Shown here: piece by piece, positions 14,693-32,120 of the stretch
Layout: each line of letters begins with the position of its first letter
Position numbering within the stretch: position 1 is the stretch's first letter
DNA from: Bradyrhizobium sp. 200
Lineage (GTDB): Bacteria; Pseudomonadota; Alphaproteobacteria; Rhizobiales; Xanthobacteraceae
Direction: 5' to 3'
NCBI RefSeq assembly: GCF_023100945.1
Contig: NZ_CP064689.1
Location: 5,934,001 to 5,998,000 of the forward strand
Length of the DNA: 64,000 bases
Position numbers and translations under genes: made by a program
The notes under the pieces: model-generated
What the model was told of the DNA's origin: nothing
What the model saw: only the letters and a program-made list of their open reading frames with translations
The model's database searches: none

Positions 14693-14735
14693 CTTGCCGA
14701 TCCCGTCGCTGGAGGCCGATTGCGATGCTCAAATC

Positions 14736-14764
14736 ATTTGTATACGATCATTCGTATACGAATG
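14736..14764. promoter_or_regulatory. Tandem operator boxes between fpr and enamidase
   Basis: Two copies of a palindrome lie side by side: TTTGTATACGAT at 14737-14748 (imperfect) and TTCGTATACGAA at 14751-14762 (perfect). They form a 14-bp direct repeat. The perfect 12-mer recurs at 31898-31909 before the hnr operon. Size and symmetry suit a dimeric MarR-type repressor; the MarR gene at 23542-23997 is the natural candidate. Confidence 0.7.
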
Positions 14765-14848
14765 AATAATCCTTCTTGATCCCGGCGTCAAGCCGCGGGC
14801 AAGATGGCGTCCTGCGCTCCGAAGGCATTGAACCTAAAAGGAAAAACC

Positions 14849-16048
14849 ATGGCCCACGATGCACCCCAGGCAACCGGCCCGAGCAAGCTGGTGATCCGTA
14901 ATATCGGGCTGCTGCTGTCGGGGGCGCTGGAGAAGCCGATCCTGGACGGCGACACGATCGTGGCCGAGAACGGCAAGATCACCGCCATCGGACGGTTCAA
15001 GGACATCAACACCGAGGGCGCGACCACGGTCGTCGATGCCAACGGCACCACCGTCGCGCCCGGCCTGATCGACAGCCATGTGCATCCCGTCGCCGGCGAC
15101 TGGACGCCGCGGCAGAACCAGACCAACTGGATCGACAGCTACCTGCACGGCGGCGTCACCACCATGATCTCCGCAGGCGAGGTCCACATGCCCGGCCGTC
15201 CCCGCGATGTCGTCGGCTTGAAGGCGATGGCGATCTTCGCGCAGCGCGCGTTCTGGACGCTGCGCCCTGGCGGGGTGAAGGTCCATGCCGGCGCCCCCGT
15301 CATCGAATGCGAGATGGTCGAGGACGATTTCAAGGAATTGGCCGCGGCCGGCGTCAAGCTGCTCGGCGAGGTCGGCTTAGGCGGCGTCAAGGACGGCCCG
15401 ACCGCGCGGAAGATGGTGGGATGGGCGCGCAAGTACGGCATCCAGAGCACGATCCACACCGGCGGGCCGTCGATCCCCGGCTCCGGCCTGATCGACAAGG
15501 ACGTGGTGCTGGAGGCTGACACCGATGTGGTCGGCCACATCAACGGCGGCCATACGGCCCTGCCCGACGACCAGATCCGCTGCATCTGCGAGGGCTGCAA
15601 GCGCGGGCTCGAACTGGTTCACAATGGCAACGAGCGCTCGGCGTTGTTCACGCTGCGCACCGCGCGCGAGATGGGCGATCTGCACCGCGTCATCCTCGGC
15701 ACCGATGCGCCGGCCGGCTCCGGCGTGCAGCCGCTCGGCATTTTGCGCATGGTCTCGATGCTGTCCTCGCTCGGCGACCTGCCCGCCGAACTCGCCTTTT
15801 GCCTGGCGACCGGCAACACCGCGCGCATGCGGGAGCTCGACTGCGGCATCATCGAAGTCGGCCGCTCCGCCGATTTCGTGCTGATGGACAAGGCGCAGCA
15901 TTCGCCCGGCAAGAACATCCTCGAAAGCGTGCAACTCGGCGACCTACCCGGCATCGGCATGACCATCATCGACGGCATCGTCCGTACCCAGCGCAGCCGC
16001 AACACGCCGCCGGCCGGCAAGGTGCCGGAGATTATCAGCGGACATTGA
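14849..16048 (+). CDS. ena: Enamidase-like amidohydrolase (tetrahydro-6-oxonicotinate hydrolysis)
   Basis: 399 residues from the ATG with AAAGGAA just upstream; the open frame extends 15 codons further without support. Metal-binding HxH is in GLIDSHVHP (H77, H79) and the conserved late aspartate in ILGTDAPAGSGVQP (D286). The overall sequence, including the LLSGALEKPILDGDTI opening, resembles Eubacterium barkeri enamidase, which opens 1,4,5,6-tetrahydro-6-oxonicotinate to 2-formylglutarate and ammonia. That assignment is supported by hnr and nicAB in the same window and by the shared operator palindrome. Other imidazolonepropionase/hydantoinase-like activities remain possible. Confidence 0.78.
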   Translation: MAHDAPQATGPSKLVIRNIGLLLSGALEKPILDGDTIVAENGKITAIGRFKDINTEGATTVVDANGTTVAPGLIDSHVHPVAGDWTPRQNQTNWIDSYLHGGVTTMISAGEVHMPGRPRDVVGLKAMAIFAQRAFWTLRPGGVKVHAGAPVIECEMVEDDFKELAAAGVKLLGEVGLGGVKDGPTARKMVGWARKYGIQSTIHTGGPSIPGSGLIDKDVVLEADTDVVGHINGGHTALPDDQIRCICEGCKRGLELVHNGNERSALFTLRTAREMGDLHRVILGTDAPAGSGVQPLGILRMVSMLSSLGDLPAELAFCLATGNTARMRELDCGIIEVGRSADFVLMDKAQHSPGKNILESVQLGDLPGIGMTIIDGIVRTQRSRNTPPAGKVPEIISGH

Positions 16049-16586
16049 TGCCGGCGGCCCAGTGATCGCACCGGGCGCGTGTTCTACCGCATCGGACTGT
16101 CAGCCAAGGCGCCGCATGCCTCCGAGCTCGGGTCGCGGCAGCCGATTCCCGACGGGCGCGAAATCCGCTATCGCGCCAAATGGCCGGGACGGGATTGAGC
16201 CATGCAAGCGCGAGGCGCTGATCCAAAACTGGCCCACCGTTGAGATGGCTTGGCTGAGCAATCCAACTGGCAGGCGCTCGCCAGTGGAACTCAACTCGTC
16301 GTGTTAGTCGCCCGTGTGCACGCAATTGCGAGGATCATGTCCGGCCGGTCGATGTCCGCGGCCAGCTCGTTTGCCCGTATTCAGGCCTGAAGTTCAAATC
16401 CGGAATCTATATGATCTGGATCACACTCATTCTCACGTTCTCATGTTCTCATGGGCTTGTTGCCCGTACCAACCAGCGTGGAACCCGCCCGGCGCTTTGC
16501 CGCGAACAGCCAGTATGGTACCGTACGGGTGCTGGAAAGATTGCTTGCCTTACACTGTGTTAGCAGTTCGGGAGCCAATCCGAGCC
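16049..16586. other. 538-base intergenic region, no gene recognised
   Basis: No reading frame here looks coding. A short stretch at about 16080-16198 reads VFYRIGLSAKAPHASELGSR in one frame and could be a remnant of an old gene, but no family was recognised. At 16430-16451 the hexamer TTCTCA occurs three times at 8-base spacing, upstream of the cyclase gene. Confidence 0.5.
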
Positions 16587-18182
16587 ATGGCCCAGATTCG
16601 TGACATCAAGTCGGGCCGCGTTGGCGAGCCGCAGCGCGGGCCAATGCCGCGCCGCCTTGCGGCCATCGTGGCGGGTGATATCTCCGGTTACAGCCGCCTG
16701 ATGCAGATCGACGAAGAAGGCACGCACACCCGTGTCAAGCGTATCGAGCGCGATCTCATCGAACCCAGCATCGTGGAACATCACGGCAGGCTCGTTAAAA
16801 CCACCGGCGACGGGTTCATTGCGATTTTCGATAGTCCCGTCGAGGCCGTCCGCTGCAGCATCGTGATTCAGCAAAATCTGGTGGGACGCAACGCGGCACT
16901 GCCAAAGCATCATTGGATCGAGTATCGCATTGGCGTCAATCTCGGCGATGTCATCATCGAAACCGACGACGTTTACGGCGACGGCGTCAATATTGCCACT
17001 CGGCTTGAAGGCATAGCCCATCCCGGCGAAGTCTATATCTCCGGCGGCATCTACGAACAGATCAAGCATAAGCTGGTTTGCGGATACGAATCGCTTGGTG
17101 ATCGCCATGTCAAGAACATCACCGATCCGGTGCGGGTCTATCGCGTGCTTTCCGATCCGGCTGCGTTTCTGCAAAACCGGAAGCGGCGCGAAGGCATTCT
17201 GATCTTTTTGCTGAGCCTTGCGGTGCTGATGATTGCTGGCGGCGGTCTCTGGTACATGCTCTTGCAGACCGGCAAGCTGCCAAATCTGGTTTCGGCTCCC
17301 GTTTCACCCCCTGAAGTGCAGAAGGCGCCCGCCGCAAAACAACCAGCGCCGCCCGCCCAGCCCGCGCCGAAGCTGGCCCCGACTCAGCAACAGGCAACAC
17401 CTCAGCCTGAGCCGTCTCCAGCTTCCAAACAGGCCGCGCCGCTACCGCCGTCCGCTTCTCCCGCCGCACCTGCTGGTCAACCAGCCACCCAGGCGGCCGC
17501 GTCGATTCCAGAGCCCGAGATGGTCGCGCTTCGGGGTGGCAGCTTTGCCATGGGCAGCAACGAAGACGCGTCGGAAAAACCGGTCCGCCAGGTAACAGTC
17601 AAGCCGTTTGCGATGGGGAAATTTCCTGTCTCCGTGCGGGAATGGAATGCATGCGCTGCCGCAAAGGCGTGCGGTTTCACGGCGAGCGGAAAGGACGATG
17701 CGCCGGTTGCAAACGTAAGCTGGAGCGACGCCAAGCAATATGTCGCCTGGCTCGCGGAAACCACCCGCAAGCCGTATCGGCTGCCGAGCGAAGCCGAATG
17801 GGAATATGCAGCGCGCGGCGGCACGCAGACCAAATTTTGGTGGGGCGATCAGCTTCAGCCCGGCATGGCCAATTGCAAGAACTGCAGTGACATTCCAGCC
17901 ATCGATCAGCCGGTCAAGGTCGGCAGCCTGAAGCCAAATCCGTTTGGGCTGTTCGATATGGGCGGCGGCGTCGATCAATGGGTCGAAGACTGCTGGCACA
18001 GAAATTATCAAGGCGCTCCGGCGGACGGATCAGCGTGGGTCGAGAATGCCTGTCCCTCGCACGTCATCCGTTCCGGCTCCTGGAGGAAAGACTCAGATTA
18101 TGCCCGGACGTCAAGCCGCGGCAGCTATGACACCAACGTGCGATATCCCACACACGGGTTCCGCGTCGCACTATCCCCCTAA
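16587..18182 (+). CDS. Class III adenylate/guanylate cyclase fused to a formylglycine-generating-enzyme-like domain
   Basis: 531 residues from ATG 16587; the longer open frame upstream has no cyclase homology. Residues 22-190 form a class III cyclase catalytic domain with metal aspartates D31 (VAGDISGYSRLM) and D75 (KTTGDGFIAIF). One transmembrane helix at about 203-226 is followed by a Pro/Ala/Gln-rich linker (about 236-307) and an FGE/SUMF1-type domain from about 311 (MVALRGGSFAMGSNED, ending HGFRVALSP). The topology implies a cytoplasmic cyclase and a periplasmic FGE-like domain, perhaps a sensor. Whether the FGE part is catalytic is unknown. Confidence 0.87.
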   Translation: MAQIRDIKSGRVGEPQRGPMPRRLAAIVAGDISGYSRLMQIDEEGTHTRVKRIERDLIEPSIVEHHGRLVKTTGDGFIAIFDSPVEAVRCSIVIQQNLVGRNAALPKHHWIEYRIGVNLGDVIIETDDVYGDGVNIATRLEGIAHPGEVYISGGIYEQIKHKLVCGYESLGDRHVKNITDPVRVYRVLSDPAAFLQNRKRREGILIFLLSLAVLMIAGGGLWYMLLQTGKLPNLVSAPVSPPEVQKAPAAKQPAPPAQPAPKLAPTQQQATPQPEPSPASKQAAPLPPSASPAAPAGQPATQAAASIPEPEMVALRGGSFAMGSNEDASEKPVRQVTVKPFAMGKFPVSVREWNACAAAKACGFTASGKDDAPVANVSWSDAKQYVAWLAETTRKPYRLPSEAEWEYAARGGTQTKFWWGDQLQPGMANCKNCSDIPAIDQPVKVGSLKPNPFGLFDMGGGVDQWVEDCWHRNYQGAPADGSAWVENACPSHVIRSGSWRKDSDYARTSSRGSYDTNVRYPTHGFRVALSP

Positions 18183-18203
18183 GGAGCGTCGAAGAGGACG
18201 GCC

Positions 18204-18629
18204 ATGAAATTCATGCAGTGGATCGCTCTGTCAGCAGCGCTCACTTGCCTGCCGTTCGCCGCCTACGCTCAAGGAAAGCCCGCGGCGAAGGATGCCCTTC
18301 TCTATTTCGTGTGGCCGCAGAACGGCGCCGTCATAAAAGGCGGATTTTGGTGCCGCTTTGGTCTGCGCAACATGGGCGTCACGCACGCCGGCGACAATTA
18401 CCCGAACAGCGGTCATCATCACCTTCTAATCAATGTGAACGAGCCGCTCAATCCGAACGAACCGATCCCGCAAGACAAGTCACATCTTCATTTTGGGGCG
18501 GGTCAGACCGAAGCCCGGATCGAACTTCCACCCGGCAAGTACACGCTTCAACTCGTGCTGGGCGATGCCGAACACTTCCCGCACAATCCTCCAGTGGTCT
18601 CGCAGAAAATTACCATCACGGTCAGATAG
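18204..18629 (+). CDS. DUF4399-type secreted protein
   Basis: 141 residues with a signal peptide ending AAYAQG (about residue 23). The HAGDNYPNSGHHHLLIN segment, rich in histidine, and HLHFGAGQTEARIELPPGKY are typical of DUF4399, a small periplasmic family of unknown function that may bind metal. It starts 21 bases after the cyclase/FGE gene and is probably co-transcribed, so it may be a ligand-binding or processing partner of that protein. Confidence 0.75.
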   Translation: MKFMQWIALSAALTCLPFAAYAQGKPAAKDALLYFVWPQNGAVIKGGFWCRFGLRNMGVTHAGDNYPNSGHHHLLINVNEPLNPNEPIPQDKSHLHFGAGQTEARIELPPGKYTLQLVLGDAEHFPHNPPVVSQKITITVR

Positions 18630-18666
18630 CGGAACTCTCCGCCGACTTGAATCCTTGCGCTTCGAA

Positions 18667-19524
18667 TTACCGGTTTTGCGTGATCGGCTGATTGGTGGTC
18701 CAGTCGAAGGTGCCTTGATCTCGCTCGTCGACAGCGCGCTTCCAGCCCATCTCCTCCGAACGCCGCTTGAAGTTCAACCCCTCCGGTGAATGCCGGGTGA
18801 TGCCGTCGAAGATGGTCGCGATCATCTGCGTACCCATCAGACCCATATTGTAGAGCGCTTGGTTGACCATCAGCTTCTGCATCATGAGCTGGTTCTGCGG
18901 CACGGTCGCCATCCGGCGCGCGAGCGCATCGACCTCCTCGTCGAGCTTCTCGGCCGGAACGGCTTTCAGCACGAGGCCGAGTGCGGCAGCCTCAATGCCG
19001 GTGATCTTGTCGCCGGTGAACAGCATGCGCTTGGCCTTTTCGGCGCCGAGCCGATAGACCCACATCGCCGTGGTCGGACAGCCCCAGACCCGAACTGGCG
19101 GATAGCCGATGCGCGCATCTTCGGCCATGACGATCATGTCGGAGCACAGCGCGATATCGGAGCCGCCGGCCACCGCAAAACCGTGCACCTTGCAGATCAC
19201 GGGTCGCTTCGAACGAAACAGGCTCATGAACTTGTTGGTGTTGTCGGACATCGCAGCGTAATCCTTCATCGGATCCCACGGCATTTCCTGGGTGCAGCGG
19301 TTGTCCCTGTCGCCGGAGGCATAGGCGGTCAGGTCGTATCCGGCGCAGAAGGCCCGGCCGGCGCCGGCCAGCACGATCACATGCGCGCCCGGATCATTGT
19401 CGGCGCGCGCGACCGCATCCGCCAGCGCGCCCGGCAGTTCGTCGTCGATCGCATTCATGACTTCCGGCCGGTTCAGCGTGATGCGCGCGATGCGCCCGTC
19501 GCGCTCGTAGAGGACTTTGGCCAT
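18667..19524 (-). CDS. Enoyl-CoA hydratase/isomerase (crotonase) family protein
   Basis: 285 residues. Crotonase oxyanion-hole segments AGAGRAFCAGYDL and KVHGFAVAGGSDIAL are present. The DARIGYPPVRVWGCPTTAMW stretch has no obvious glutamate at one of the usual catalytic sites, so hydratase activity is not certain. It follows a second crotonase (23 bases) and a TetR gene on the same strand, forming a three-gene operon. Substrate unknown; role in acyl-CoA degradation inferred. Confidence 0.87.
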   Translation of the reverse strand: MAKVLYERDGRIARITLNRPEVMNAIDDELPGALADAVARADNDPGAHVIVLAGAGRAFCAGYDLTAYASGDRDNRCTQEMPWDPMKDYAAMSDNTNKFMSLFRSKRPVICKVHGFAVAGGSDIALCSDMIVMAEDARIGYPPVRVWGCPTTAMWVYRLGAEKAKRMLFTGDKITGIEAAALGLVLKAVPAEKLDEEVDALARRMATVPQNQLMMQKLMVNQALYNMGLMGTQMIATIFDGITRHSPEGLNFKRRSEEMGWKRAVDERDQGTFDWTTNQPITQNR

Positions 19525-19547
19525 GAACGGCCTCCCTGGAAAAGAGA

Positions 19548-20360
19548 TCAGATCTTCGCGAAATCGCCGTGGCGGCCCTTGCCGGCGGCAAAGCGCGCAG
19601 CGCCACTGGCGCCTTCCTTGAAGATGGCCTCAACGCCGTTGGACCATTCCTGTCGCAAGGCTTCGCGGACCGGCAAGCCATACGTTTCGACCACCGAGCG
19701 CCGATCGGCTCGCACGGCCGCTTGCGGAAACCGTGCGATCTCGCGCGCCATCGCCTCGGCCGCGGCACGCGCGCCGCCGGGCTCGACCACCTGTTCGCAC
19801 ATGCCGATGCGCAATGCTTCCCCGGCCGGGACCTTGCGGCCTGTCAGGATGATTTCGATCGCGCGTCCCTGCCCGACCAGTCGCGCCAGACGCACGCTGC
19901 CGCCATCCAGCAGCGGGATGCCCCAGCGTCGACAATAAACGCCGAAATAAGCACTCTCGGCCATCACGCGGATGTCGCACCACAGGGCAAGCTCCATGCC
20001 GCCGGCCACGGCCGGTCCTTCTACGGCGGCAATCACCGGCTTTGATAATTCCAGCCGCGTCGGTCCGAGCGGACCGCGCGGCGCGGCGTTGGCGCCGGTC
20101 GGGAACGCCAGGCCATCGACGACGTGGCGTTGGAAGGCATCGCGATCGCCGAGCGTGCTGGCAAATTTGAGATCCCAGCCGGCGCAGAACGCGCCGCCCT
20201 CGCCCCACAGCACGGCAACGCTTGCGGAATCGTCGGCGTCGAATTCCTTAAAAGCCTCCGCCAGCGCGTCGGCACTGTCCGGATCCATCGCGTTGCGCGC
20301 TTCGGCAAACCGGCTGTGGATGACGGTCCACACTGCGCCCTGTTTTTCGATCCGGACCAT
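19548..20360 (-). CDS. Enoyl-CoA hydratase (crotonase) family protein
   Basis: 270 residues from ATG 20360, which has GGGAG upstream; an upstream open extension to 20426 overlaps the TetR gene and is disregarded. Motifs WGEGGAFCAGWDLKF and AVEGPAVAGGMELAL form the CoA oxyanion hole. It differs clearly from the other crotonase downstream, so this is not a recent duplication. The TetR gene precedes it by 13 bases, and expression is likely set by the operator at 21035-21053. Confidence 0.87.
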   Translation of the reverse strand: MVRIEKQGAVWTVIHSRFAEARNAMDPDSADALAEAFKEFDADDSASVAVLWGEGGAFCAGWDLKFASTLGDRDAFQRHVVDGLAFPTGANAAPRGPLGPTRLELSKPVIAAVEGPAVAGGMELALWCDIRVMAESAYFGVYCRRWGIPLLDGGSVRLARLVGQGRAIEIILTGRKVPAGEALRIGMCEQVVEPGGARAAAEAMAREIARFPQAAVRADRRSVVETYGLPVREALRQEWSNGVEAIFKEGASGAARFAAGKGRHGDFAKI

Positions 20361-20373
20361 TTCGCTTACTCCC

Positions 20374-21036
20374 TTACTGTTTTGATTTACGTGCGGCCTT
20401 CGCGTTCTTCGACCCCGTCGGGCCAAGGCATTGCGCCAGCATCATGCGAAGCAGCGTCTGCGCGCCGGTTTGCAGAAAATCCAGCCGGCCAGCGATCTGC
20501 AGCACGAGAGCCCCGATCATCTGGCTGGTGAGCAGCGCCACCCACGGCCGAACCTCTGAAGGCTTGAGGCCGCGCACCTCAGTCAGCGGCACCGCGATGC
20601 GTTCCAGCACCTTCCATAGCGCCTGGTTGAGTTCCTCGTCCGACGGCTTGCCGACGCCCAGCCGCTTGAGACCGCGGAATGCATAGAGGCCCAGATTTAT
20701 TTCGAAGCGGTGATCGAGGTAGTAGCTCAGGAAGGCGCCGCAGGCCGCCTCGACCCGGGCCTCCGGCGTCCGCGCGGCAGCCACTGCTTTGGCAACGTAG
20801 GCATCGAGCGCCGCCAGCGACTGTTTTAGCAGCTCGGCATAGATCGCCTCCTTGCTGTCGAACAACGGATAGATCGCGCCCGTCGTGCAGCCGGCGCGCA
20901 CCGCGATGCCGCGCATGGTGGCGCCTTCCAGACCCTGTTCGGCGAATTCGTCGCGCGCAGCGCGGAGCAGAAGCTCGCGCTTCGCGCCCTTCACGACGTC
21001 CGACCAATCCTTTGCGGCGGCTGCGGGCTTGACCAT
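20374..21036 (-). CDS. TetR-family transcriptional regulator
   Basis: 220 residues. The N-terminal helix-turn-helix (RDEFAEQGLEGATMRGIAVR, then GCTTGAIYPLFDSKEAIYAE) is the TetR pattern. The ligand domain follows. A perfect 9-1-9 palindrome overlaps its own start codon, so autorepression is likely. It is co-directional with two crotonase genes, which suggests the ligand is an acyl-CoA or a related acid; that is inference. SBP56 diverges from it across about 420 bases. Confidence 0.88.
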   Translation of the reverse strand: MVKPAAAAKDWSDVVKGAKRELLLRAARDEFAEQGLEGATMRGIAVRAGCTTGAIYPLFDSKEAIYAELLKQSLAALDAYVAKAVAAARTPEARVEAACGAFLSYYLDHRFEINLGLYAFRGLKRLGVGKPSDEELNQALWKVLERIAVPLTEVRGLKPSEVRPWVALLTSQMIGALVLQIAGRLDFLQTGAQTLLRMMLAQCLGPTGSKNAKAARKSKQ

Positions 21037-21053
21037 GATAACAGTGTTATCAT
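21035..21053. promoter_or_regulatory. Perfect 19-bp palindromic operator at the TetR gene start
   Basis: The sequence ATGATAACAGTGTTATCAT is a perfect inverted repeat of nine bases around a central G. It begins within the ATG of the TetR gene (complement of 21034-21036). Length and symmetry match TetR-family operators, and its position would block expression of TetR and the two crotonases. Confidence 0.75.
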
Positions 21054-21458
21054 TTCATTCTATCTGAAGTCAATGGTAACAAGAGTTTTTGGATGCCGGT
21101 CGATCCGCCGGAGCCCTCTGCAAACGCGGTGAAATTCGCGTTGCGCGATCGGCCGCGCCTGACGCGCAATGGTGTGAAATCGAAGGCCCCGATCGCCGAC
21201 GAACGGGACGCAAGGTGGCCGGCAAGCAAGACGATGGGGTCGCTCAAGCCCGACGTCTCTTCTCCGCTGCCGGGCACTGTGACAACCGGTGTCACCATCG
21301 TTATTTCCGCCTGATCGCATTGCGGTGTATGGTCGATGGGCAAATCCCGGCCGGCGGCACTTCGCGAGAGGAACTCAACGCGCCGGGTGATTTCTTGCTG
21401 CTGCATATGCCGCTGAGCCGTGTTGCTTGTACATCGAGGCAAACAGGGAGGCAGTACG
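21054..21458. other. Intergenic region between TetR and SBP56 genes
   Basis: About 400 bases in which no convincing gene was found; open frames on both strands lack family features. It must hold the promoters of the divergent TetR operon and of the SBP56 gene. No terminator or second palindrome was seen. Confidence 0.5.
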
Positions 21459-22859: not shown

Positions 22860-23527
22860 ATTTGAGCGCAGCCGACTGGACACCCGCCTGGCTCTGGCTG
22901 GCTGTGATCGCGAGCGGCCTCTATCACGGCGTCAACCCGGGCATGGGGTGGCCGCTCGCCGTTTCCGCTGGATTGATGGAGAAGAGCCCGCGCGCCCTGG
23001 TGACCGCGCTTTGGCCACTCACGGCGGGGCACCTGCTCGCGATGCTTCTCGTGATCCTTCCCTTCGCGCTGCTGGTTGCCGTCGTCGAATGGCAGCGCAC
23101 GATACAGATCGGCGCCAGCCTCCTCGTCATCGCCTTCGGTCTTTATCGATTGGCCAACCGGCGTCACCCAAGGGCGCTGGCGCGGATTTCACCGCCGCAA
23201 TTGGGGCTATGGTCGTTCGCCGTCGCCCTCGCCCATGGCGCCGCATTGATGCTGGTGCCGATCTATCTCGGGCTCTGCCGGGAAGCCGTACCCGACAGGG
23301 GTCACGAGGCCGCCGGCACGCTCATCAACGCCAATCTTGGCATGGCCGTGCTGGTTGCCGCCGCCCACGCCGCCGCGATGGTCGCCGCCGGCGGATGCTG
23401 CGCGTGGCTCGCCTACCGCTATCTCGGTCCCAAATTCATATCGCAGAGCTGGTTCAATCTGGATACGACCTGGGCCGTCAGCCTCATTCTGGTGGGCGCT
23501 ATCGCGCTGGTGCTGAACCTGAGCTGA
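22856..23527 (+). CDS. Integral membrane protein of unknown function
   Basis: 223 residues with about six hydrophobic helices. It starts with TTG at 22856, overlapping the SBP56 stop in TTGA, so translation is probably coupled. A GLYHGVNPGMGWPLAV motif in the first helix, HLLAM in the second and an AHGAALMLVPIYLG segment carry histidines within membrane helices, which recalls metal-permease-like families such as HupE/RcnA, but no family was firmly recognised. A role in delivering a metal to the SBP56 protein is a guess based on position. Confidence 0.7.
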   Translation: MNLSAADWTPAWLWLAVIASGLYHGVNPGMGWPLAVSAGLMEKSPRALVTALWPLTAGHLLAMLLVILPFALLVAVVEWQRTIQIGASLLVIAFGLYRLANRRHPRALARISPPQLGLWSFAVALAHGAALMLVPIYLGLCREAVPDRGHEAAGTLINANLGMAVLVAAAHAAAMVAAGGCCAWLAYRYLGPKFISQSWFNLDTTWAVSLILVGAIALVLNLS

Positions 23528-23541
23528 CGCGGCAGCCGCCT

Positions 23542-23997
23542 TCAGCGCAATTTGCTCAACAGCTCCATCAGGGTTTCGCGCTCCTTCGCATCGAGCGGTG
23601 CCAGCGTCTCTCTCGTTATCGCGAGCGCGTTCGGCGCGGCCTTCTCGGCGAGCTGCTGGCCGGCGCGGGTCAGGCTGACCAAGAGCCGGCGGCCGTCCTC
23701 GGGGTCCGGGCTGGTCTCGGTAAGTCCGCGCGCGGTGAGGCGGTCGATCACGCCCTTGATGGTCGCGACATCCATCGCCGTCAGCCGCCCGAGCAGGTTC
23801 TGCGAGCACGGCCCGGTCTCGGCGAGCTTTGAGACGGCCGCCCATTGCGTCGGCGTCAGGTTGATGCCGATTTCGCGGGCGAAGATGGTGGCGTGACGCT
23901 GCCAGACCTGACGCAGGATGAAGCCGATCTGCTCATCGAGGATGTAGGACGGCCGTGCAGGCTTGACTGCTCGTTTCGGCGAAACGCTCCTCCCCAT
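23542..23997 (-). CDS. MarR-family transcriptional regulator
   Basis: 151 residues. The winged-helix region reads LTPTQWAAVSKLAETGPCSQ, then MDVATIKGVIDRLTARGLTE and SPDPEDGRRLLVSLTRAGQQ, the MarR signature. It is the last gene on the strand that carries hnr and the livFGHM-type transporter, 27 bases after livF. In Pseudomonas the nicotinate repressor NicR is also a MarR protein responding to 6-hydroxynicotinate, so this gene is the best candidate for binding TTCGTATACGAA. That link is inferred. Confidence 0.88.
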   Translation of the reverse strand: MGRSVSPKRAVKPARPSYILDEQIGFILRQVWQRHATIFAREIGINLTPTQWAAVSKLAETGPCSQNLLGRLTAMDVATIKGVIDRLTARGLTETSPDPEDGRRLLVSLTRAGQQLAEKAAPNALAITRETLAPLDAKERETLMELLSKLR

Positions 23998-24024
23998 TTT
24001 TCCCGCCCCTTCCCTTGCGCCCGG

Positions 24025-24729
24025 CTACAGCGACAGATGCGCGTCCCGGATATCCGGCCGCGCGTCGAGTTCGGCCATCGTGCCACCAAAACAGATCTTG
24101 CCACGTTCGATGATGTAGGCGCGGTCGGAGATCAGCCGCGCGAAATGCAAATTCTGCTCGGAGACCACGATGCTGACGCCTTCTCTCTTCATCGCGAGGA
24201 TGGCTTCGACCATCTGTTCGACGATTTTTGGCGACAGCCCTTCCGAGGGTTCGTCGAGCAGTACGAGCGATGGATTCCCCATCAGCGTCCGCGCGATCGT
24301 CAACATCTGTTGTTCGCCGCCGCTCATCCGCCCGCCCGGGCGGTTTCGCATTTCGCCGAGGTTGGGAAACAGCGTGAACAGTTTTTCCCGCGTCCACTGC
24401 GGCGCGTTGGGCCGTTTCGGCTGGCGGCCGACTTCGAGATTTTCCTCGACTGTCAGGTCCGTGAAAATGCGCCGCTCCTCCGGCACGTAACCAAGCCCGC
24501 CGCGCACGATCGCATGCGTCGGTTCGCGCGAGACGTCCTTGCCTTCGAACACAATCCGTCCCGAGCGGTTCTCGACCAGGCCGACGATGGAACGGAAGGT
24601 GGTCGATTTGCCGGCGCCGTTGCGGCCGAGCAGCGCCACCACCTCGCCCTCGCCGACTTCCAGCGCGATATCGAACAGGATATGCGCCGGGCCATAAAAA
24701 CTGTTGAGATCGGCGACCTGCAGCTTCAT
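24025..24729 (-). CDS. livF: Branched-chain amino acid-type ABC transporter ATPase LivF
   Basis: 234 residues with Walker A LLGRNGAGKSTT, signature MSGGEQQMLTIA, Walker B LVLLDEPSEGLSPKIVE and Q-loop GYVPEERRIF. These match LivF, one of two ATPases in HAAT importers. The start overlaps livG by four bases (ATGA). The system follows hnr and its companions, so its cargo is probably nicotinate or a related N-heterocycle rather than an amino acid (inference). Confidence 0.93.
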   Translation of the reverse strand: MKLQVADLNSFYGPAHILFDIALEVGEGEVVALLGRNGAGKSTTFRSIVGLVENRSGRIVFEGKDVSREPTHAIVRGGLGYVPEERRIFTDLTVEENLEVGRQPKRPNAPQWTREKLFTLFPNLGEMRNRPGGRMSGGEQQMLTIARTLMGNPSLVLLDEPSEGLSPKIVEQMVEAILAMKREGVSIVVSEQNLHFARLISDRAYIIERGKICFGGTMAELDARPDIRDAHLSL

Positions 24730-25517
24730 GCGCCGGCTCCCTCGCGGTGGCGCGCGTCATAGACCAGGCCTTCGCCGAGATAGATGGCGCGCACCTGCGG
24801 ATTGCCGCGGACTTCCTCGGGCGAGCCCTCGGCGATCAGGCTGCCGCGGTTAAGCACCAGGATGCGATCGGCATGTTCGAACACCACGTCCATGTCGTGC
24901 TCGGTGAAGAGCACGCCGATCGATTGCTCGCGTGCGATGCGCGCGGTCAGCCGCATCAATTCGATCCGCTCGCGCGGCGCCATGCCGGCGGTCGGTTCGT
25001 CCATCAGCAACAGTTTCGGCTGGTTGGCGAGCGCGATCGCAAGCTCCAGCCGTTTGAGGTCACCGTAAGCAAGCTCGCCGCAGGGCCGCCCGGCATAGGC
25101 GCCCATGCCGACGAGATCGAGCAGCCGGCCGGCTTCGTCGCGCGCGTAACTTGCGGTCGAGCCCCAGAGATTGAACAATTGCCTGCCGTAGGACACCAGC
25201 GCGACCTGCACGTTCTCGCGCACGGTCATGGTCGGAAACGTCGCCGTGATCTGGAACGTGCGCCCGACGCCGAGCCGCCAGATCGCGCGCGGCTTCCGGC
25301 CCACCGTGTCCTCCCCAAGCAGATTAATGCGGCCGCTGTCCGGTATGTTTTGGCCATTGAGCATGTCGAAACAGGTGCTCTTGCCCGCGCCGTTGGGCCC
25401 GATCAGCGCCAGAATTTCGCCCGCGCGCAGTTCGAACGACACGCTGCGCACGGCGTGTACGCCGCCATAGGATTTGCTGAGATTTTGAACCGACAGCAAT
25501 ATGGGGACCATGCTCAT
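24726..25517 (-). CDS. livG: Branched-chain amino acid-type ABC transporter ATPase LivG
   Basis: 263 residues. Walker A LIGPNGAGKSTCFDML, the LivG-specific GRTFQITATFPTMTV Q-loop region, Walker B LLLMDEPTAGMAPRERIEL and H-loop TEHDMDVVF. It overlaps both neighbours by four bases, showing translational coupling in livHM-livG-livF. Confidence 0.93.
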   Translation of the reverse strand: MSMVPILLSVQNLSKSYGGVHAVRSVSFELRAGEILALIGPNGAGKSTCFDMLNGQNIPDSGRINLLGEDTVGRKPRAIWRLGVGRTFQITATFPTMTVRENVQVALVSYGRQLFNLWGSTASYARDEAGRLLDLVGMGAYAGRPCGELAYGDLKRLELAIALANQPKLLLMDEPTAGMAPRERIELMRLTARIAREQSIGVLFTEHDMDVVFEHADRILVLNRGSLIAEGSPEEVRGNPQVRAIYLGEGLVYDARHREGAGA

Positions 25518-27400
25518 TCGGCAACCTCGACCCGGGAGGTGGCAAGCGCGGATTTTTTCTCAGGGGATCGCCGGCGATTCCTGATCGTCTCCAGCGTGCC
25601 GACGATGCCCTTCGGGAACGCCACCACCATCAGCACGATGAAGCCGCCCAACACCAGTTTCGAAAGATCGGTCTGGCTAACCAGCCAGATGTTGGCCGCC
25701 TTGAACACGATGGCGCCGATGACCGCACCGGAAACCGTCTCGACGCCGCCGAGCAGCACCATGACCAGCGCATCGACCGACAGCGAGATGCCGAGGCTGT
25801 CGGGGAAGACGCTGCCTTTCAGATAGGCGAACAAGGCGCCGCCGATCCCTGCGACCGTGCCCGATATGACGAAGGCCGTCCATTGCACGCGCTTACCGTT
25901 GATGCCGATCGCCTCGCTGCGCAGCGGCGAGTCCCGCGTCGCGCGCAGTGCAAAGCCGAACGGCGAGAACACGATCACCCGCAATACCGTGACCGCGAGC
26001 GCGGCGATCGCAAGCGACAGCCAGTAAAAACTGGCCGGGCCCGCGGCCCACTTGTCCGGCCAGACGCTCAAAATGCCGTTGTCACCGCCGGTGACAGCTA
26101 CCCACTGGAACGCGATCGACCAGACGATCTGCGCAAAGGCCAGCGTCAGCATTGCGAAATAGACGCCGGACAGTTGCACGGCGAAGAAGCCAAACACCGC
26201 CGCACCCATCAGACCCAACAATGGGCCGAGCAGCAGCGAAACGATCATCGGCAGTCCCGCTGCCTTGGCGAGAAACGCGACGCCATAGGCGCCAAGCCCG
26301 AAATAAGCGGCATGGCCGAACGAGGCGAGCCCGCCGACCGACATCAGGAAATGCAGGCTGGCGGCAAAGATCACGAAGATCGCGATCTCGGAGCCGACCG
26401 TGAGCGCGTAATTGCCTGCGAACAGCGGCAGCATGGCGGCTGCGACCAGCGCGCCCATCGACATCAGCCGCTCGCCCGAGGTGAGCGGCCGCCATGGATT
26501 AACGGTCAGGCCCGGCGTGCGACGCGCGGCAGCCTCCGGCTTGCCGAACAGGCCCCACGGCCGCACGATCAGCACGACCGCCATCACGAGAAACACCAGG
26601 ATGATGGAGATCTTCGGGAAAATGAGAATGCCAAAGGCGTTGAGCTCGGAGACGAGCACGGCGGCAACGAAAGCGCCGATGATGCTGCCGAGGCCGCCGA
26701 TCACCACCACGACGAACACTTCGACGATGATGCGAAGGTCCAGTGCGTGATGCACGGCGTCACGCGGGATCTGCAGCGCGCCGCCGAGGGCGGCGAGAAA
26801 GACGCCGAGCGCGAATACGCTGGTGAACAGCCATTTCTGATTGACGCCGAGCGCCGCCACCATGTCGCGGTCCTGCGTCGCCGCGCGCACCAGCACGCCC
26901 CAGCGCGTGCGCTGGAACAACAGCCAGAGCCCGCCGAGCACGACCGGACTGAGCGCGATCAGGAACAGATCGTAACTCGGGATATTCTGGCCGAAGAAAT
27001 CGACGGCGCCCCTGAAGCCCGGCGCGCGGCGGCCGAGCAGATCGTCGGGGCCCCAGATCAGCACGACGATATCCTGGACCATCAGGGTCAGGCCGAAGGT
27101 TGCGAGCAACTGGAACAGTTCCGGCGCATGATAGATCCGTCGCAGCAGCACCATCTCGACCAGCACGCCGACGGCAGCGACCACCAGCGCCGCAACGACG
27201 ATGCCGCCCCAGAAGCCGAGCGCGCCGGAGAAGCGCTCGGTCAGCGTGAATGCGACATAGGCGCCCAGCATGTAGAAGGCGCCATGGGCAAAATTCACGA
27301 TCCGCGTCACGCCGAAGATGATCGACAGCCCCGACGCGACCAGAAACAGCGACGCCGCGCTGGCAAGACCGGTCAGGAACTGAACGAAGTAAAAGGCCAT
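25514..27400 (-). CDS. Fused LivH-LivM permease of a branched-chain-type ABC transporter
   Basis: 628 residues from ATG 27400 (a TTG at 27421 is the alternative). The first half (about 1-285, with IIFGVTRIVNFAHGAFYMLG and VVIGGLGSIIGAFVAA) is LivH-like. The second (about 310-628, with LHFLMSVGGLASFGHAAYFG and VMVLLGGVETVSGAVIGA) is LivM-like. Such single-chain fusions are common in Rhizobiales. It lies 252 bases after the binding protein, a gap filled by repeats, so the operon may have a second promoter or attenuate there. Confidence 0.92.
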   Translation of the reverse strand: MAFYFVQFLTGLASAASLFLVASGLSIIFGVTRIVNFAHGAFYMLGAYVAFTLTERFSGALGFWGGIVVAALVVAAVGVLVEMVLLRRIYHAPELFQLLATFGLTLMVQDIVVLIWGPDDLLGRRAPGFRGAVDFFGQNIPSYDLFLIALSPVVLGGLWLLFQRTRWGVLVRAATQDRDMVAALGVNQKWLFTSVFALGVFLAALGGALQIPRDAVHHALDLRIIVEVFVVVVIGGLGSIIGAFVAAVLVSELNAFGILIFPKISIILVFLVMAVVLIVRPWGLFGKPEAAARRTPGLTVNPWRPLTSGERLMSMGALVAAAMLPLFAGNYALTVGSEIAIFVIFAASLHFLMSVGGLASFGHAAYFGLGAYGVAFLAKAAGLPMIVSLLLGPLLGLMGAAVFGFFAVQLSGVYFAMLTLAFAQIVWSIAFQWVAVTGGDNGILSVWPDKWAAGPASFYWLSLAIAALAVTVLRVIVFSPFGFALRATRDSPLRSEAIGINGKRVQWTAFVISGTVAGIGGALFAYLKGSVFPDSLGISLSVDALVMVLLGGVETVSGAVIGAIVFKAANIWLVSQTDLSKLVLGGFIVLMVVAFPKGIVGTLETIRNRRRSPEKKSALATSRVEVAE

Positions 27401-27436
27401 TGGCGGTCCGGGTTGGTGCAATCGTCAGAGCGGGCC

Positions 27437-27655
27437 TTCATCCTTCGAGACGGCGCTTCGCGCCTCCTCAGGATGAGGTCTGGTAGTCCCTCATGGTGAG
27501 GAGCGCGGCATCGCCGCGCGTCTCGAACCATGAGGCCTCGATAGCGGTGAGCGACTGTCTCTGCGAGTTCGATTCGTGAAGACAGCCCCTCACCCCGACC
27601 CTCTAAGAGCGAGCTTCGCTCGTCTCGACCCCGCAAGAGCGGGGCGACAGGCTCA
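27437..27655. repeat. Intergenic repeat elements between binding-protein and permease genes
   Basis: Two hairpin-rich blocks: 27437-27540, containing CATCCTTCGAGACGGCGC and mirror arms CTCCTCAGGATGAGG, and 27581-27655, containing GAGCGAGCTTCGCTCG and CCCGCAAGAGCGGGG. The compositions match palindromic repeats scattered between genes in Bradyrhizobium. They may stabilise or terminate the upstream message within the operon. Confidence 0.65.
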
Positions 27656-28855
27656 CTCCTTCGGACGCAGCTTTCCAACCTCGGCATCGCTCGGCAGATA
27701 ATCGGCGCCCTTGCGATAGACGGAATCCACCATCACGCCCTTGCCGTCCCTCAGCGCGGTCTTGCCGACATAGGCCCCGAGCGTCGACTGGTGATCGATC
27801 TTGCGGAACGTGATCTCGCCGAACGGCGACGGCATCGACAGGCCTTCGGTCGCCGCGATCAGCTTCTCCGGATCGGTCGAATTGGCTTTGGCAAGGATCG
27901 CTGCTGCGGCCTTGATGGTCTGGTAGCCGACGATCGAGCCGAGGCGCGGATAGTCGTTGAACTTGGCCTGATAGGCTTTCAGGAATTTGTCATGGTCCGG
28001 CGTCTTGATGTCGTACCAGGGATAGCCCGTGACGATCCAGCCCTCGGGCGTCTCGTCCTTCAGCGGATCGAGATATTCCGGCTCGCCGGTGAGGAAGGAT
28101 ACCACTGAGCGTCCCTTGAACAGGCCTCGCGTATTGCCCTCGCGCACGAGCTTGACTAGGTCGGCACCGAAGGTGACGTTGAGGATCGCTTCGGGATTGG
28201 CGGCGGCAACGGCCTGCACCACCGGACCGGCGTCGATCTTGCCCTGCGGCGGCCACTGCTCGTCGACCCACTGGATGTCCGGACGCTTCTCCGACATCAG
28301 CTTCTTGAACACCGCAACCGCCGACTGGCCGTATTCATAGTTCGGCGCGATCGTTGCCCAGCGCTTGGCCGGCAGTTTTGCAGCCTCTTCCACCAGCATC
28401 GCCGCCTGCATGTAGTTGGAGGGGCGCAGGCGGAATGTGTAGCGGTTGCCCTTAGACCAGGTGATGGCGTCGGTCAAAGGCTCCGCCGCCAGGAAGAAGA
28501 CCTTCTTCTGGTTGGCGAAGTCGGAGACAGCCAGACCGATGTTGGACAGGAACGTACCCGCCAGCATCGCCACGTTCTCGCTCGACACCAGTTCGTTGGC
28601 CGCGGTCTGCGCGTCCGCCGGCTTGCCGCCGTCATCCTTGGAGATGACGACGAGCTTCTTGCCGTTGATACCGCCCGCGGCGTTGACTTCCTCGACTGCA
28701 AGCTGCCAGCCCTTGCGGTAGGGCTCGGTGAAGGCGGGCAACAGCGAATAGCTGTTGATTTCCCCGATCTTGATCTCGCTTTGCGCCATCGCCGAACCGG
28801 CCATGCCGACAACCGCGACCGCCAATCCCGCTCCCAGCAAATGTCTCCGTCGCAT
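27653..28855 (-). CDS. Branched-chain amino acid-type ABC substrate-binding protein
   Basis: 400 residues from ATG 28855, placed after GGAGG; a longer start at 28867 lies before that ribosome site and is rejected. Signal peptide MRRRHLLGAGLAVAVVGMAG to about residue 25. The mature part begins EIKIGEINSYS and carries the periplasmic-binding-protein type 1 fold typical of LivJ/AmiC (GGINGKKLVVISKDDGGKPA). Position directly after DUF1185 and hnr genes suggests the ligand is nicotinate or an analogue. Confidence 0.9.
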   Translation of the reverse strand: MRRRHLLGAGLAVAVVGMAGSAMAQSEIKIGEINSYSLLPAFTEPYRKGWQLAVEEVNAAGGINGKKLVVISKDDGGKPADAQTAANELVSSENVAMLAGTFLSNIGLAVSDFANQKKVFFLAAEPLTDAITWSKGNRYTFRLRPSNYMQAAMLVEEAAKLPAKRWATIAPNYEYGQSAVAVFKKLMSEKRPDIQWVDEQWPPQGKIDAGPVVQAVAAANPEAILNVTFGADLVKLVREGNTRGLFKGRSVVSFLTGEPEYLDPLKDETPEGWIVTGYPWYDIKTPDHDKFLKAYQAKFNDYPRLGSIVGYQTIKAAAAILAKANSTDPEKLIAATEGLSMPSPFGEITFRKIDHQSTLGAYVGKTALRDGKGVMVDSVYRKGADYLPSDAEVGKLRPKE

Positions 28856-28878
28856 CCCTACCTCCAATGTTAAAGCAA

Positions 28879-29463
28879 CTATCGCAAACCGTCTTCGCCT
28901 TTGACTTCCGAAACCGTCAGTCCCCCGACGCGCGGCAATGGCCTGCCGCTGTCGGTAACCGCAACTGCCACCATGATTTCGTTGGCACGCGGCGCATCAT
29001 TGATCTGCACTTCCATGCCATCGAAATGGCTGCGCACGAAGGCTGCGTCCTTGTGGCCGAGCGGAATGTCGAGCGTCGTCCCCGGGCCACTACGCTTCTT
29101 CGACGACGGGATCAGTGCCGCGCCCTTGGTCAGCACTTTCCGCACCGGTGCCCCCATCTTTGGATGCAGGATCGCTGCCGCGTGTTCGAGTTCGCCGTTT
29201 TCGCCGACGGCTGCGGCCTTGCCGTAGCTGTGCGCCTTGGCGCCATCGATGCCAAGCGCCGCCACCGCTCTTTTCGAAAGCAGATCGCCGAGCTCCTCGC
29301 CGATTTCGATCAAAGGTGAAAGATCCTCGACGTACCGGCCTGCAAAGGGATTCTCGATCACGGCTATTGCCGCAGCCCGCCGCGTCGGCGGCGCAACCTT
29401 TTGCCCCATCTCGAGATGAGTCTCCTCAACCACGGTGACGATCTTGCGAATGATCGCGCTCAT
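28879..29463 (-). CDS. DUF1185 (amino acid synthesis family) protein
   Basis: 194 residues with the conserved opening IRKIVTVVEETHLEMGQ and segments IENPFAGRYVEDLSPLI and AHSYGKAAAVGENGELEHAA. These define DUF1185, often labelled amino acid synthesis protein, with no proven reaction. It sits between UPF0280 and the ABC binding protein in the hnr operon (18 and 23 base gaps), so a step or an accessory role in N-heterocycle breakdown is likely. Confidence 0.82.
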   Translation of the reverse strand: MSAIIRKIVTVVEETHLEMGQKVAPPTRRAAAIAVIENPFAGRYVEDLSPLIEIGEELGDLLSKRAVAALGIDGAKAHSYGKAAAVGENGELEHAAAILHPKMGAPVRKVLTKGAALIPSSKKRSGPGTTLDIPLGHKDAAFVRSHFDGMEVQINDAPRANEIMVAVAVTDSGRPLPRVGGLTVSEVKGEDGLR

Positions 29464-29481
29464 TGTCAGCCTCGCTCCCGA

Positions 29482-30390
29482 TCAAGCATGCGCCGTCCTT
29501 TCCAGTGCGCTTCCATGAAACACCGGTGGCGCGCCGGCCCTGATCCCTGTTGCACCCACCACGGCCGTCTCGCCTAGTAGACGCAAGGCCGCACCTTCGA
29601 TCAATCCCGCCGCAAGCAATTGCTGTGCCCGGTTCACCCCTGCCCTCAGCGCGCTGTCGATCTCGCTCTCTCCGAGTGCGCCGACATCACGGGTGACAAG
29701 GCGCGTCCCGAGGTCGCTGTCCGGCTGCAACTCGTTCGCCGGACAACGGATGATGGCGGGATGGCCGGGCAGATCGACGGCATTGGCGATGATGGTAGCC
29801 GCGGCATCGGCCTGCGACGCCGTTTTCGCCAGCACGGTGACGGCATCGGCGATCCCCAGCGAAAAACTGCGGCCGTGCCGCCCGCTGGTCGCGATGCCCC
29901 GCGCCGGATCGTCAGCGTCAATATTGATGGTTTGCATCACGCCATAATGGTCCGGACGATCCATCAGCCCGACGGTAAACTGTTCGCCACCGGTCAAATG
30001 TAACGCGATATCGCCACCATTATTGACGTAAGCCCGGTCGAGCCGCGCCGCGCGCAACATCGCACCAAGGATTTCGTCCGCGACGCTACCGGCCACTGCT
30101 GCCATCGGCGTGATGAAGGCAGCCGCTGCAAACGGCGCGACAGCCGCATGCATGCGGCGCGCGACGGCACCTTTCAGCGGGCATCGAACCGGATCGGCGG
30201 CCCTTCGCAGTTCAACCAGCTCCGCGCAGAGTTCATCGAGCAGACCGGTAAAGCGCCGCGCCGCCGCCTCGTAAGCGGCCCGCACGTCTCCTTCCCTGCC
30301 CTTCGCTTCAATGACCAGATCGATCGGACCGTCCTGCAAATGCAGCCGCTTGCCGTCCGGAAGAAGCGCGATTTGCGGCAGCCGTTTCAT
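29482..30390 (-). CDS. UPF0280 (ApbE-like fold) protein
   Basis: 302 residues. The ATG at 30390 overlaps the hnr stop as ATGA; the longer open frame to 30759 lies inside hnr and is discarded. Motifs PMAAVAGSVADEILGAM, RAYVNNGGDIALHL and ATSGRHGRSFSLGIADAVTV are UPF0280 features and echo ApbE flavin transferases (NxGGD-like, SGxxxR, HIID-like regions). Function is unproven. Its strict coupling to hnr suggests a role in making or flavinylating the reductase. Confidence 0.82.
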   Translation of the reverse strand: MKRLPQIALLPDGKRLHLQDGPIDLVIEAKGREGDVRAAYEAAARRFTGLLDELCAELVELRRAADPVRCPLKGAVARRMHAAVAPFAAAAFITPMAAVAGSVADEILGAMLRAARLDRAYVNNGGDIALHLTGGEQFTVGLMDRPDHYGVMQTINIDADDPARGIATSGRHGRSFSLGIADAVTVLAKTASQADAAATIIANAVDLPGHPAIIRCPANELQPDSDLGTRLVTRDVGALGESEIDSALRAGVNRAQQLLAAGLIEGAALRLLGETAVVGATGIRAGAPPVFHGSALERTAHA

Positions 30391-31835
30391 GCGCGACGTC
30401 CCGGGATGTAAGGCATCGGGCGGGTTTCGGTGTTGTCCCGCAACGACGCCAGCGGACGGACATGGTCCATGTGGCCGCCGAGCGCGGCATAATCGGAAAG
30501 CCGCAGCGTGAACTCGATCGGCGCCACCAGTGCCGGCGTCGGCACATAGCCGAACGCGCCGGCCGGCATCTGCGTGACGTCGACCATGAAGGTGATGCCG
30601 CCGCCGGGCCAGACATAAACAGGTGCGCCACCGCTGGTGACCCGCGTCAGCGCGTCCTTGACCGAGCGCGTCAGCCGCACTGGATTGTCGGTGACGCCGG
30701 CGCGCAGCGAGCCGCCGGCACCGCCCATGAACAGAACCGTGCACAGCGCAGGCTCGCAATTCTCCTGGATGCGCTCGACCGAAAACCTGAGACCGGGCGG
30801 CATTTGCTTTTCGACGGGCCGCAGCGCCTCGTCGAGTTCGTAATAGGCGGCGTGCTCGCCAGTGGTCGAAACCATCAGCATGGTCAGACCGGGCCGCGCC
30901 TCCTTCGGATTGAACGGCCCCAGCACGGACAGCGGATCGGAAATATTGGTGCCGCCCCAGCCGGTGCCGGGATCGGCGACCTGGAAGTAACGGCCCGGCG
31001 TCGAACGCCGTCCTTTCATCTTGATCCCGGTATCGGGAATATCGAGCAGCTTGCCGGCCTGATGCTCGCTGAGAACGCCGGTGATGTGGTCGTCAACCAC
31101 GACGACCTCATCGACCTTGCCGTGCCACTGCTTGGCAAACATGCCGATGGTCGCCGAACCGCAGCCCACCCGCATGCGCTCTTCGGCGACGCCATTGACG
31201 ATCGGCGGGTGGCCTGCCTGCACCACGACGGTAGCGCCGCCGTCGATCGTCAGTTCCACCGGCTTGCAGTTGGAGAGGTCCATCAGCGCATCGCAGGTGA
31301 TGCGGCCCTCTTTCTTGGAGCCGCCGGTCAGATGATGCACGCCGCCGAGCGACAGCATCTGCGAGCCGTATTCGCTGGTCGTCACGTGGCCGATCGCCTC
31401 GCCTTCCGCACGGACGGTTGCCGTCTCCGGACCCAGATAGCGGTCGGTGTCGATCTTCACCTTGACGCCGCAATAGCTGAAAATGCCCTCGGTCACGACG
31501 GTGACCATGTCGACGCCGTCGACTTCCGACGACACGATGAAGGGCGCGGGCTTGTAGTCGGGATAGGTCGTGCCGGCGCCGATGGCCGTGACGAATACGC
31601 TCGGCTCGCGGACGATCTTGCCGTCCCAGTCGCCGCCGCCGGCCTGGAACGGCACCAGCCGTCCGCCATGCGATACCGTCTGCTCCAGCACGATATGCGG
31701 ATCGACGCGGACCAGTTCGCCATTGTGATTGGCATAACGATCGCATGCGCCGGCCGCGCCCGGCTTGATGTAGCACATCACCGGGCAGGCATCGCAGCGG
31801 ATCTTGTCGCCACCGGCGACGGTCGCATCGGTCAT
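30387..31835 (-). CDS. hnr: 6-hydroxynicotinate reductase-like iron-sulfur protein
   Basis: 482 residues from ATG 31835 (a TTG at 31841 is possible). The N-terminus has a four-cysteine motif, C14, C17, C21 and C31 (RCDACPVMCYIKPGAAGACD), suited to a [4Fe-4S] cluster. The remainder is glycine-rich with AGHPPIVNGVAEERMRVGCG and matches the Hnr family. Hnr of Eubacterium barkeri reduces 6-hydroxynicotinate to 1,4,5,6-tetrahydro-6-oxonicotinate with reduced ferredoxin. Context supports it: nicAB makes the substrate, enamidase uses the product, and TTCGTATACGAA lies 63-74 bases upstream. It is the first gene of the operon. Confidence 0.82.
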   Translation of the reverse strand: MTDATVAGGDKIRCDACPVMCYIKPGAAGACDRYANHNGELVRVDPHIVLEQTVSHGGRLVPFQAGGGDWDGKIVREPSVFVTAIGAGTTYPDYKPAPFIVSSEVDGVDMVTVVTEGIFSYCGVKVKIDTDRYLGPETATVRAEGEAIGHVTTSEYGSQMLSLGGVHHLTGGSKKEGRITCDALMDLSNCKPVELTIDGGATVVVQAGHPPIVNGVAEERMRVGCGSATIGMFAKQWHGKVDEVVVVDDHITGVLSEHQAGKLLDIPDTGIKMKGRRSTPGRYFQVADPGTGWGGTNISDPLSVLGPFNPKEARPGLTMLMVSTTGEHAAYYELDEALRPVEKQMPPGLRFSVERIQENCEPALCTVLFMGGAGGSLRAGVTDNPVRLTRSVKDALTRVTSGGAPVYVWPGGGITFMVDVTQMPAGAFGYVPTPALVAPIEFTLRLSDYAALGGHMDHVRPLASLRDNTETRPMPYIPGRRA

Positions 31836-31897
31836 GAACAAGCCTGCAGTCGAGAAGGCGCCGATCGGAGCCGCTTTCTCGCAGCCCGGTCATTTTG

Positions 31898-31909
31898 TTC
31901 GTATACGAA
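31898..31909. promoter_or_regulatory. Palindromic operator upstream of hnr
   Basis: TTCGTATACGAA, a perfect 12-bp palindrome identical to the box at 14751-14762 near enamidase and fpr. It lies in the divergent hnr/nicA promoter region. Confidence 0.72.
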
Positions 31910-32049
31910 TGATGTTGCGCGCGGACTTGAACGCTGTCAAGCGGGCCCGGAAGCCAAAAACCTCGCTTGCCGCATAATAACTCATTTGCCTCGCATCTCT
32001 GTTCATAAAGCGGGCAACGCGCTGCAGCGCGGGATGGCGCGCTTGCACG

Positions 32050-32061
32050 TTTGTACACAAA
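32050..32061. promoter_or_regulatory. Related palindrome upstream of nicA
   Basis: TTTGTACACAAA: two arms TTTGT and ACAAA around AC. It shares the TTyGTnnACrAA layout with the boxes at 31898 and 14751 and lies 60-71 bases before the nicA start. It may be a weaker site for the same repressor. Confidence 0.5.
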
Positions 32062-32120
32062 CGGTATCTTTCCCGAGCGCTCAGCAGAAAGTTTGCAACG
32101 CAGCGAGGGCTTGAGGGAGC

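Follow-up and report, generated by a model that had tools for sequence, protein, structure and literature searches.

The palindromes flanking the nicotinate (vitamin B3) genes of Bradyrhizobium sp. 200 are very probably the operators of a MarR-family repressor encoded among those genes. The window, that is the whole stretch of 64,000 nucleotides analyzed here (contig NZ_CP064689.1, positions 5,934,001 to 5,998,000), carries genes for a nicotinate hydroxylase (nicAB), a 6-hydroxynicotinate reductase (hnr), an enamidase and a ferredoxin-NADP reductase-like protein (fpr); it is proposed that the MarR protein (23542..23997, minus strand) controls nicAB, the hnr operon, enamidase and fpr, and that 6-hydroxynicotinate releases it. 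The properties computed for the palindrome are its rarity, its conservation, its placement relative to a TTGAC box and its co-occurrence with marR and hnr. They support and widen an earlier note on this DNA, in which one palindrome linked enamidase, fpr, hnr and perhaps nicA into a MarR-controlled regulon; the system is a new example of something already known, namely control of a nicotinate pathway by a MarR-type protein.

The best site in the window is TCATTCGTATACGAATGA, a perfect 18-bp palindrome at 14748..14765 between the divergent fpr and enamidase genes (matrix score 32.6). Its core, TTCGTATACGAA, was found by window scan exactly at 14751-14762 and at 31898-31909, the second copy forming the core of the hnr-operon operator (31895..31912, score 31.2). 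A degenerate partner with the core TTTGTATACGAT (14737-14748, window scan) belongs to an upstream operator at 14734..14751, which lies 14 bp from the main operator and has the third best score in the window (22.6), and the core TTTGTACACAAA at 32050-32061, detected in both window and genome scans, marks the nicA operator 5ˊ of that gene (32047..32064, score 20.5). All four sites lie where the earlier note had placed them; it had also staked its regulon on the 12-mer not being common in the genome, and it is not, with two exact copies in 9.49 Mb. Within the window, four matches with up to two mismatches to the 12-mer were counted against 0.69 expected, a number reached by 1 of 100 shuffles; the fourth match (17079-17090) falls within an open reading frame (ORF). 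In the whole genome (9,494,728 bases), TTyGTATACrAA occurs exactly twice, both times in the window, and its reversed control not at all. The form TTyGTryACrAA occurs six times against two for the control; three of these are the nicotinate sites, and the other three, considered as further targets, were rejected, having the core GTGCAC and lying inside ORFs. Loose TTnGTryACnAA matches were likewise rejected as further targets (9 against 8 in the control), and the 12-mer with two mismatches is not enriched genome-wide (140 against 161 in the control). Since loose forms stay at control level, only close matches carry meaning.

The lack of enrichment of the two-mismatch forms is what could be said for chance, that is, for the window holding two unrelated copies of a short palindrome, but the genus-wide counts speak otherwise: in 117 genomes of the genus there are 137 exact copies, distributed over 104 genomes, and the reversed control is found 10 times. 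Positions are known for 75 exact sites in 59 of these genomes, and of them 57 sit 17-120 bp 5ˊ of an hnr match, 3 before enamidase and 8 before nicotinamidase. The 11 genomes that have hnr and lack an exact copy, together with G065, in which the copy lies elsewhere, all have a form with one or two mismatches near hnr. Adding the fixed place relative to TTGAC and the class-level conservation, where matrix scans were run with two controls (both described below), we reject chance as having a negligible probability. The same survey ties marR to hnr: hnr is present in 115 of the 117 genomes, and a MarR orthologue more than 80% identical is present in the same 115. Of the genomes lacking hnr, G041 has no MarR match and G015 has one at 50%; neither has an exact site.

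Conservation was examined in named relatives, the best 80 of 397 confirmed hnr loci, mostly from Bradyrhizobium and Afipia. The 12-mer lies within 300 bp 5ˊ of hnr in exact form in 71 of the 80, with one mismatch in 7 and with two mismatches in 1; the remaining locus, L060, starts inside hnr. The conservation before orthologous hnr genes that the earlier note called for is therefore found, and the "perhaps" that it attached to nicA can be dropped: nicA is located across from hnr at no more than 1.2 kb in 76 loci, of which 67 carry a palindrome of the same type on the nicA side, as TTTGTATACAAA (34), TTTGTGTACAAA (24), TTTGTACACAAA (8) or TTCGTATACGAA (1) on the strand reading towards hnr, and 9 do not. 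Before orthologous enamidase genes the expected conservation holds in a laxer form. Palindromes are present in the enamidase-fpr interval of 25 of 25 loci, as a pair spaced 14 bp in 17 and as a single site in 8, but most deviate from the 12-mer by 1-3 bases; five more loci with enamidase and no fpr in range have a single site each, with 1-2 mismatches.

Taken together, the sites define the operator as TCrTTyGTryACrAAyGA, about 18 bp long and centered on GTryAC, in which the invariance of GT and AC is partly imposed by the site-collecting pattern that fixed them. Its placement is regular: 5ˊ of hnr, 77 of 98 loci have a TTGAC that starts 31 bp ahead of the operator, and in 96 of 98 the distance is 27-32 bp. 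The window hnr promoter reads TTGACA, 17 bp, CAACAT, 2 bp and then the operator, which should cover the transcription start if the -35 and -10 elements, picked by eye, are read correctly. The nicA operator is placed between TTGCAC and TATCTT, and fpr has TTGACG, 17 bp and TATTCA followed directly by the operator. This placement at the hnr, nicA and fpr promoters suits a repressor, and from it we infer repression rather than activation. In other genera of the family (L246-L248, L250, L251, L254-L256 and L258-L260) the hnr operator reads TCATTAGTACACATATGA or a near variant, and in the cases shown it stands 27-28 bp after TTGAC, not 31.

At the level of the class, a matrix was trained on 109 distinct sites collected in near relatives, with a site defined by a score of at least 15, and was applied to 20 stretches around hnr; these came from the 30 top-ranking genomes among the 66 outside the genus that gave a match. 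A search directly 5ˊ of hnr failed at this level because other genes precede hnr there, and the wider stretches revealed the site: 16 of the 20 have one, against a mean of 0.82 stretches, and never more than 5, for 200 column-permuted palindromic matrices. The operator is present in 13 of 13 class stretches with the cluster MarR and in 3 of 7 without it (Fisher p 0.007); a wider table of 36 stretches gives p 0.00015, to be given less weight since it includes the loci on which the matrix was trained. The most direct computed tie of this MarR to this operator is L312 (G979), from another family of the same order, in which 9 bp separate the end of the top-scoring site, TCGTTCGTATACGAACGA, from a likely marR start codon (itself inside a longer listed ORF) and a second site stands before hnr, 4 kb away. 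This arrangement and the co-occurrence of marR, hnr and site lend weight to the earlier guess that the MarR gene may encode the regulator. Around distant MarR genes (3.4-kb stretches from 20 of the 37 genomes with a match beyond the genus), a site is found at a shuffle p of 0.01, the floor with 100 shuffles, in 6 of 20, and L292 has a weak site at p 0.03.

The regulator itself matches the Pfam model MarR (PF01047) with 37.1 bits against a cut-off of 24.6; it has the winged-helix domain, and a palindromic operator, to which binding is predicted, lies ahead of the hnr operon that ends with marR and, in L312, just before marR itself. Its nearest relative with a known ligand in the Protein Data Bank (PDB) is BpsR (E 4e-24), and the two share the MarR fold and similar sequence. 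The nic pathway governed by BpsR is the oxidative one, not that of hnr and enamidase. According to the parts of PMC6837509 that we drew on, BpsR of Bordetella (PDB 6pco and 6pcp) represses nicotinic acid metabolism genes and is released by 6-hydroxynicotinic acid, which contacts Tyr15, His23, Arg26 and His32; BpsR differs in that it also represses biofilm and other genes, and those parts give no operator sequence for it. In our alignment these residues correspond to Tyr18, Phe26, Arg29 and His35. Three of the four contacts are kept, and 6-hydroxynicotinate is therefore a likely inducer, as judged from the sequence. Among 101 cluster MarRs, Tyr18 and Arg29 are found in 101 and His35 in 97.

The earlier note had offered NicR of Pseudomonas as the known parallel. 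NicR of Pseudomonas putida is indeed a MarR-type repressor of nic genes in the portions used of PMC6837509 and PMC10269826, but the nearest solved relative with a known ligand is BpsR of Bordetella. The BpsR 6-hydroxynicotinate residues are absent from NicR as described in part of PMC6837509, whereas three of the four are kept here, a comparison made by description; neither the NicR sequence nor its operator was found in those portions. For the nicotinate cluster of Bradyrhizobiaceae and Azorhizobium, the sections of PMC3511419 on the cluster mention neither a regulator nor an operator or regulon. The predicted alphaproteobacterial regulator NadQ resembles the present case as a comparative-genomics regulon around the same vitamin but concerns NAD synthesis, not nicotinate breakdown, in the sections of PMC5343134 consulted, where the term NicR does not occur. 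No description of the operator or regulon was found in the literature searched, which included parts of PMC6837509, PMC10269826, PMC5343134, PMC9304392 and PMC3511419, with subscription titles mostly outside reach.

Several observations weigh against the proposed regulator or its inducer. Seven of the 75 positioned exact sites are near no nicotinate gene found; L150, L164 and L166 carry the site without a MarR within the stretch; and 13 of the 20 short stretches around distant MarR genes have no site at p 0.05. The 3 of 7 class stretches that keep the operator without a MarR would fit a palindrome belonging to another regulator, for instance the TetR-type protein of 20374-21036 or a factor encoded elsewhere, with marR a mere bystander in the operon. 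This is improbable: the presence or absence of marR agrees with that of hnr in all 117 genomes (115 present, 2 without an orthologue), the best operator of L312 stands just before marR itself, and the TetR gene is near hnr in only 6 of the 69 relatives with marR, on which ground the TetR gene was rejected as the regulator. On the side of the protein, 2nnn, its nearest relative of solved structure, is described as no more than a probable regulator and has no function listed; His23 of BpsR is replaced by Phe26, so that the full four-residue signature is not present; and His35 is missing in 4 of the 101 cluster MarRs. The His23 position (94 have Phe, 4 Tyr and 3 His) leaves room for a MarR that binds the operator but has a different inducer, for example nicotinate itself, tetrahydro-6-oxonicotinate or one of the later acids. 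Such an inducer is compatible with the operator assignment, so its odds overlap those of the overall proposal; with the other three contacts so widely kept we hold it possible yet doubtful. The MarR could also act as an activator instead.

In the favored scheme, a MarR dimer would sit on TCrTTyGTryACrAAyGA without nicotinate, over the hnr transcription start, in the gap that separates the divergent promoters of enamidase and fpr, and within the promoter of nicA, and would thereby block RNA polymerase. Once nicotinate enters, basal NicAB would make 6-hydroxynicotinate, which would bind the dimer much as in BpsR and release it, so that nicAB, the hnr-importer-marR operon, enamidase and fpr would be expressed together. 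We infer that marR is co-transcribed with hnr; in 69 of 69 relatives livF and marR share a strand and are separated by 12-152 bp. As marR ends the operon that MarR would repress, MarR may adjust its own level.

The genes concerned form two groups on the window. The first comprises fpr (13919..14692, minus strand), the best NCBIfam match of which, PRK10926, reaches 158 bits, below the cut-off of 390, and the enamidase-like amidohydrolase gene (14804..16048, plus strand, start codon uncertain; Pfam Amidohydro_1 and Amidohydro_3). The second runs on the minus strand from hnr (30387..31841) through a UPF0280-type protein (29482..30759, PRK04334; the listed ORF overlaps hnr, so the true start lies further in), an AA_synth family protein with no assigned role (28879..29463, PF06684) and ABC importer genes identified by family models (a substrate-binding protein, a fused permease and two ATPases, 24025..28867) to marR, with nicA (32121..32591, molybdenum hydroxylase 2Fe-2S subunit) and nicB (32588..36142, molybdopterin and cytochrome c subunit), also assigned by family models, on the plus strand. 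None of the family models searched matched the hnr protein; its name comes from the earlier note and the published cluster, and that of enamidase from the earlier note, the models giving only an amidohydrolase. With these names, which are not model-derived, the nicotinate hydroxylase, hnr, enamidase and ABC transporter genes make up the content of an hnr-type reductive cluster, fitting the Bradyrhizobiaceae nicotinate cluster as presented in sections of PMC3511419. The fpr gene probably belongs to the regulon, judging from the operator that adjoins its promoter-like sequence. The hnr enzyme draws on reduced ferredoxin, and the fpr product could be its electron supply. A second hnr, 77% identical to that of the window, occurs in one genome of the genus (G031:C1:6220249-6221625).

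Enamidase and marR are about 7.5 kb apart in the window (16049-23541) against 13-2037 bp, end to end, in 31 relatives with both genes whole; as they are near neighbors there, the 17-kb split in the window would reflect an insertion or rearrangement. The intervening DNA encodes one protein in which a guanylate/adenylate cyclase domain is joined to an FGE-sulfatase domain (16314-18182) and an ORF similar to methanethiol oxidase at 104 bits, under the cut-off of 650 (21420-22859).

Two further genes bear on this system. A nicotinate phosphoribosyltransferase gene, which serves NAD salvage, lies at 36212-37516, on the same strand as nicB and 70 bp 3ˊ of it. A homologue is found near hnr in 55 of the 69 relatives with marR, and given these two facts salvage and breakdown may share a promoter. 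The other gene encodes a nicotinamidase (PRK11609, 186.9 bits, cut-off 174), lies outside the window and was not part of the cluster; it appears often to belong to the regulon. Of 49 nicotinamidase loci, a set that leans to relatives of a query picked for having the site and includes two paralogues at 59%, the exact 12-mer is found in 13 and TTnGTryACnAA in 28, always starting 57-62 bp before the match; the 183,730 bases of these loci contain 29 such cores, and 28 of them are these upstream sites. The nicotinamidase gene of the genome under study (G000:C1:9453371-9454078) has a degenerate site only, TTCGTACACACG at -61. The protein, in L136 (5061-5783) and relatives as in this genome, has an export-like N-terminus containing RR. 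In two other genomes an exact site lies inside a longer palindrome beside a SnoaL-like gene (L131 and L134, both at about 5001), which is possibly a further regulon member.

For the reductive, hnr/enamidase route of nicotinate breakdown, a candidate for the regulator is now at hand, together with an operator and a gene list; the operator can serve as a gene finder, having pointed here to a nicotinamidase outside the cluster, and the window MarR offers a naturally altered 6-hydroxynicotinate pocket for comparison with BpsR. We lean slightly towards a broader picture, in which the MarR and its 18-bp operator would form a reductive nicotinate-breakdown regulon conserved across much of Alphaproteobacteria. 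In parts of Bradyrhizobium this regulon would have taken in a nicotinamidase whose N-terminus looks export-like, and the phosphoribosyltransferase gene 3ˊ of nicB may be drawn in as well. If this is true, one repressor would choose between salvaging vitamin B3 and eating it.

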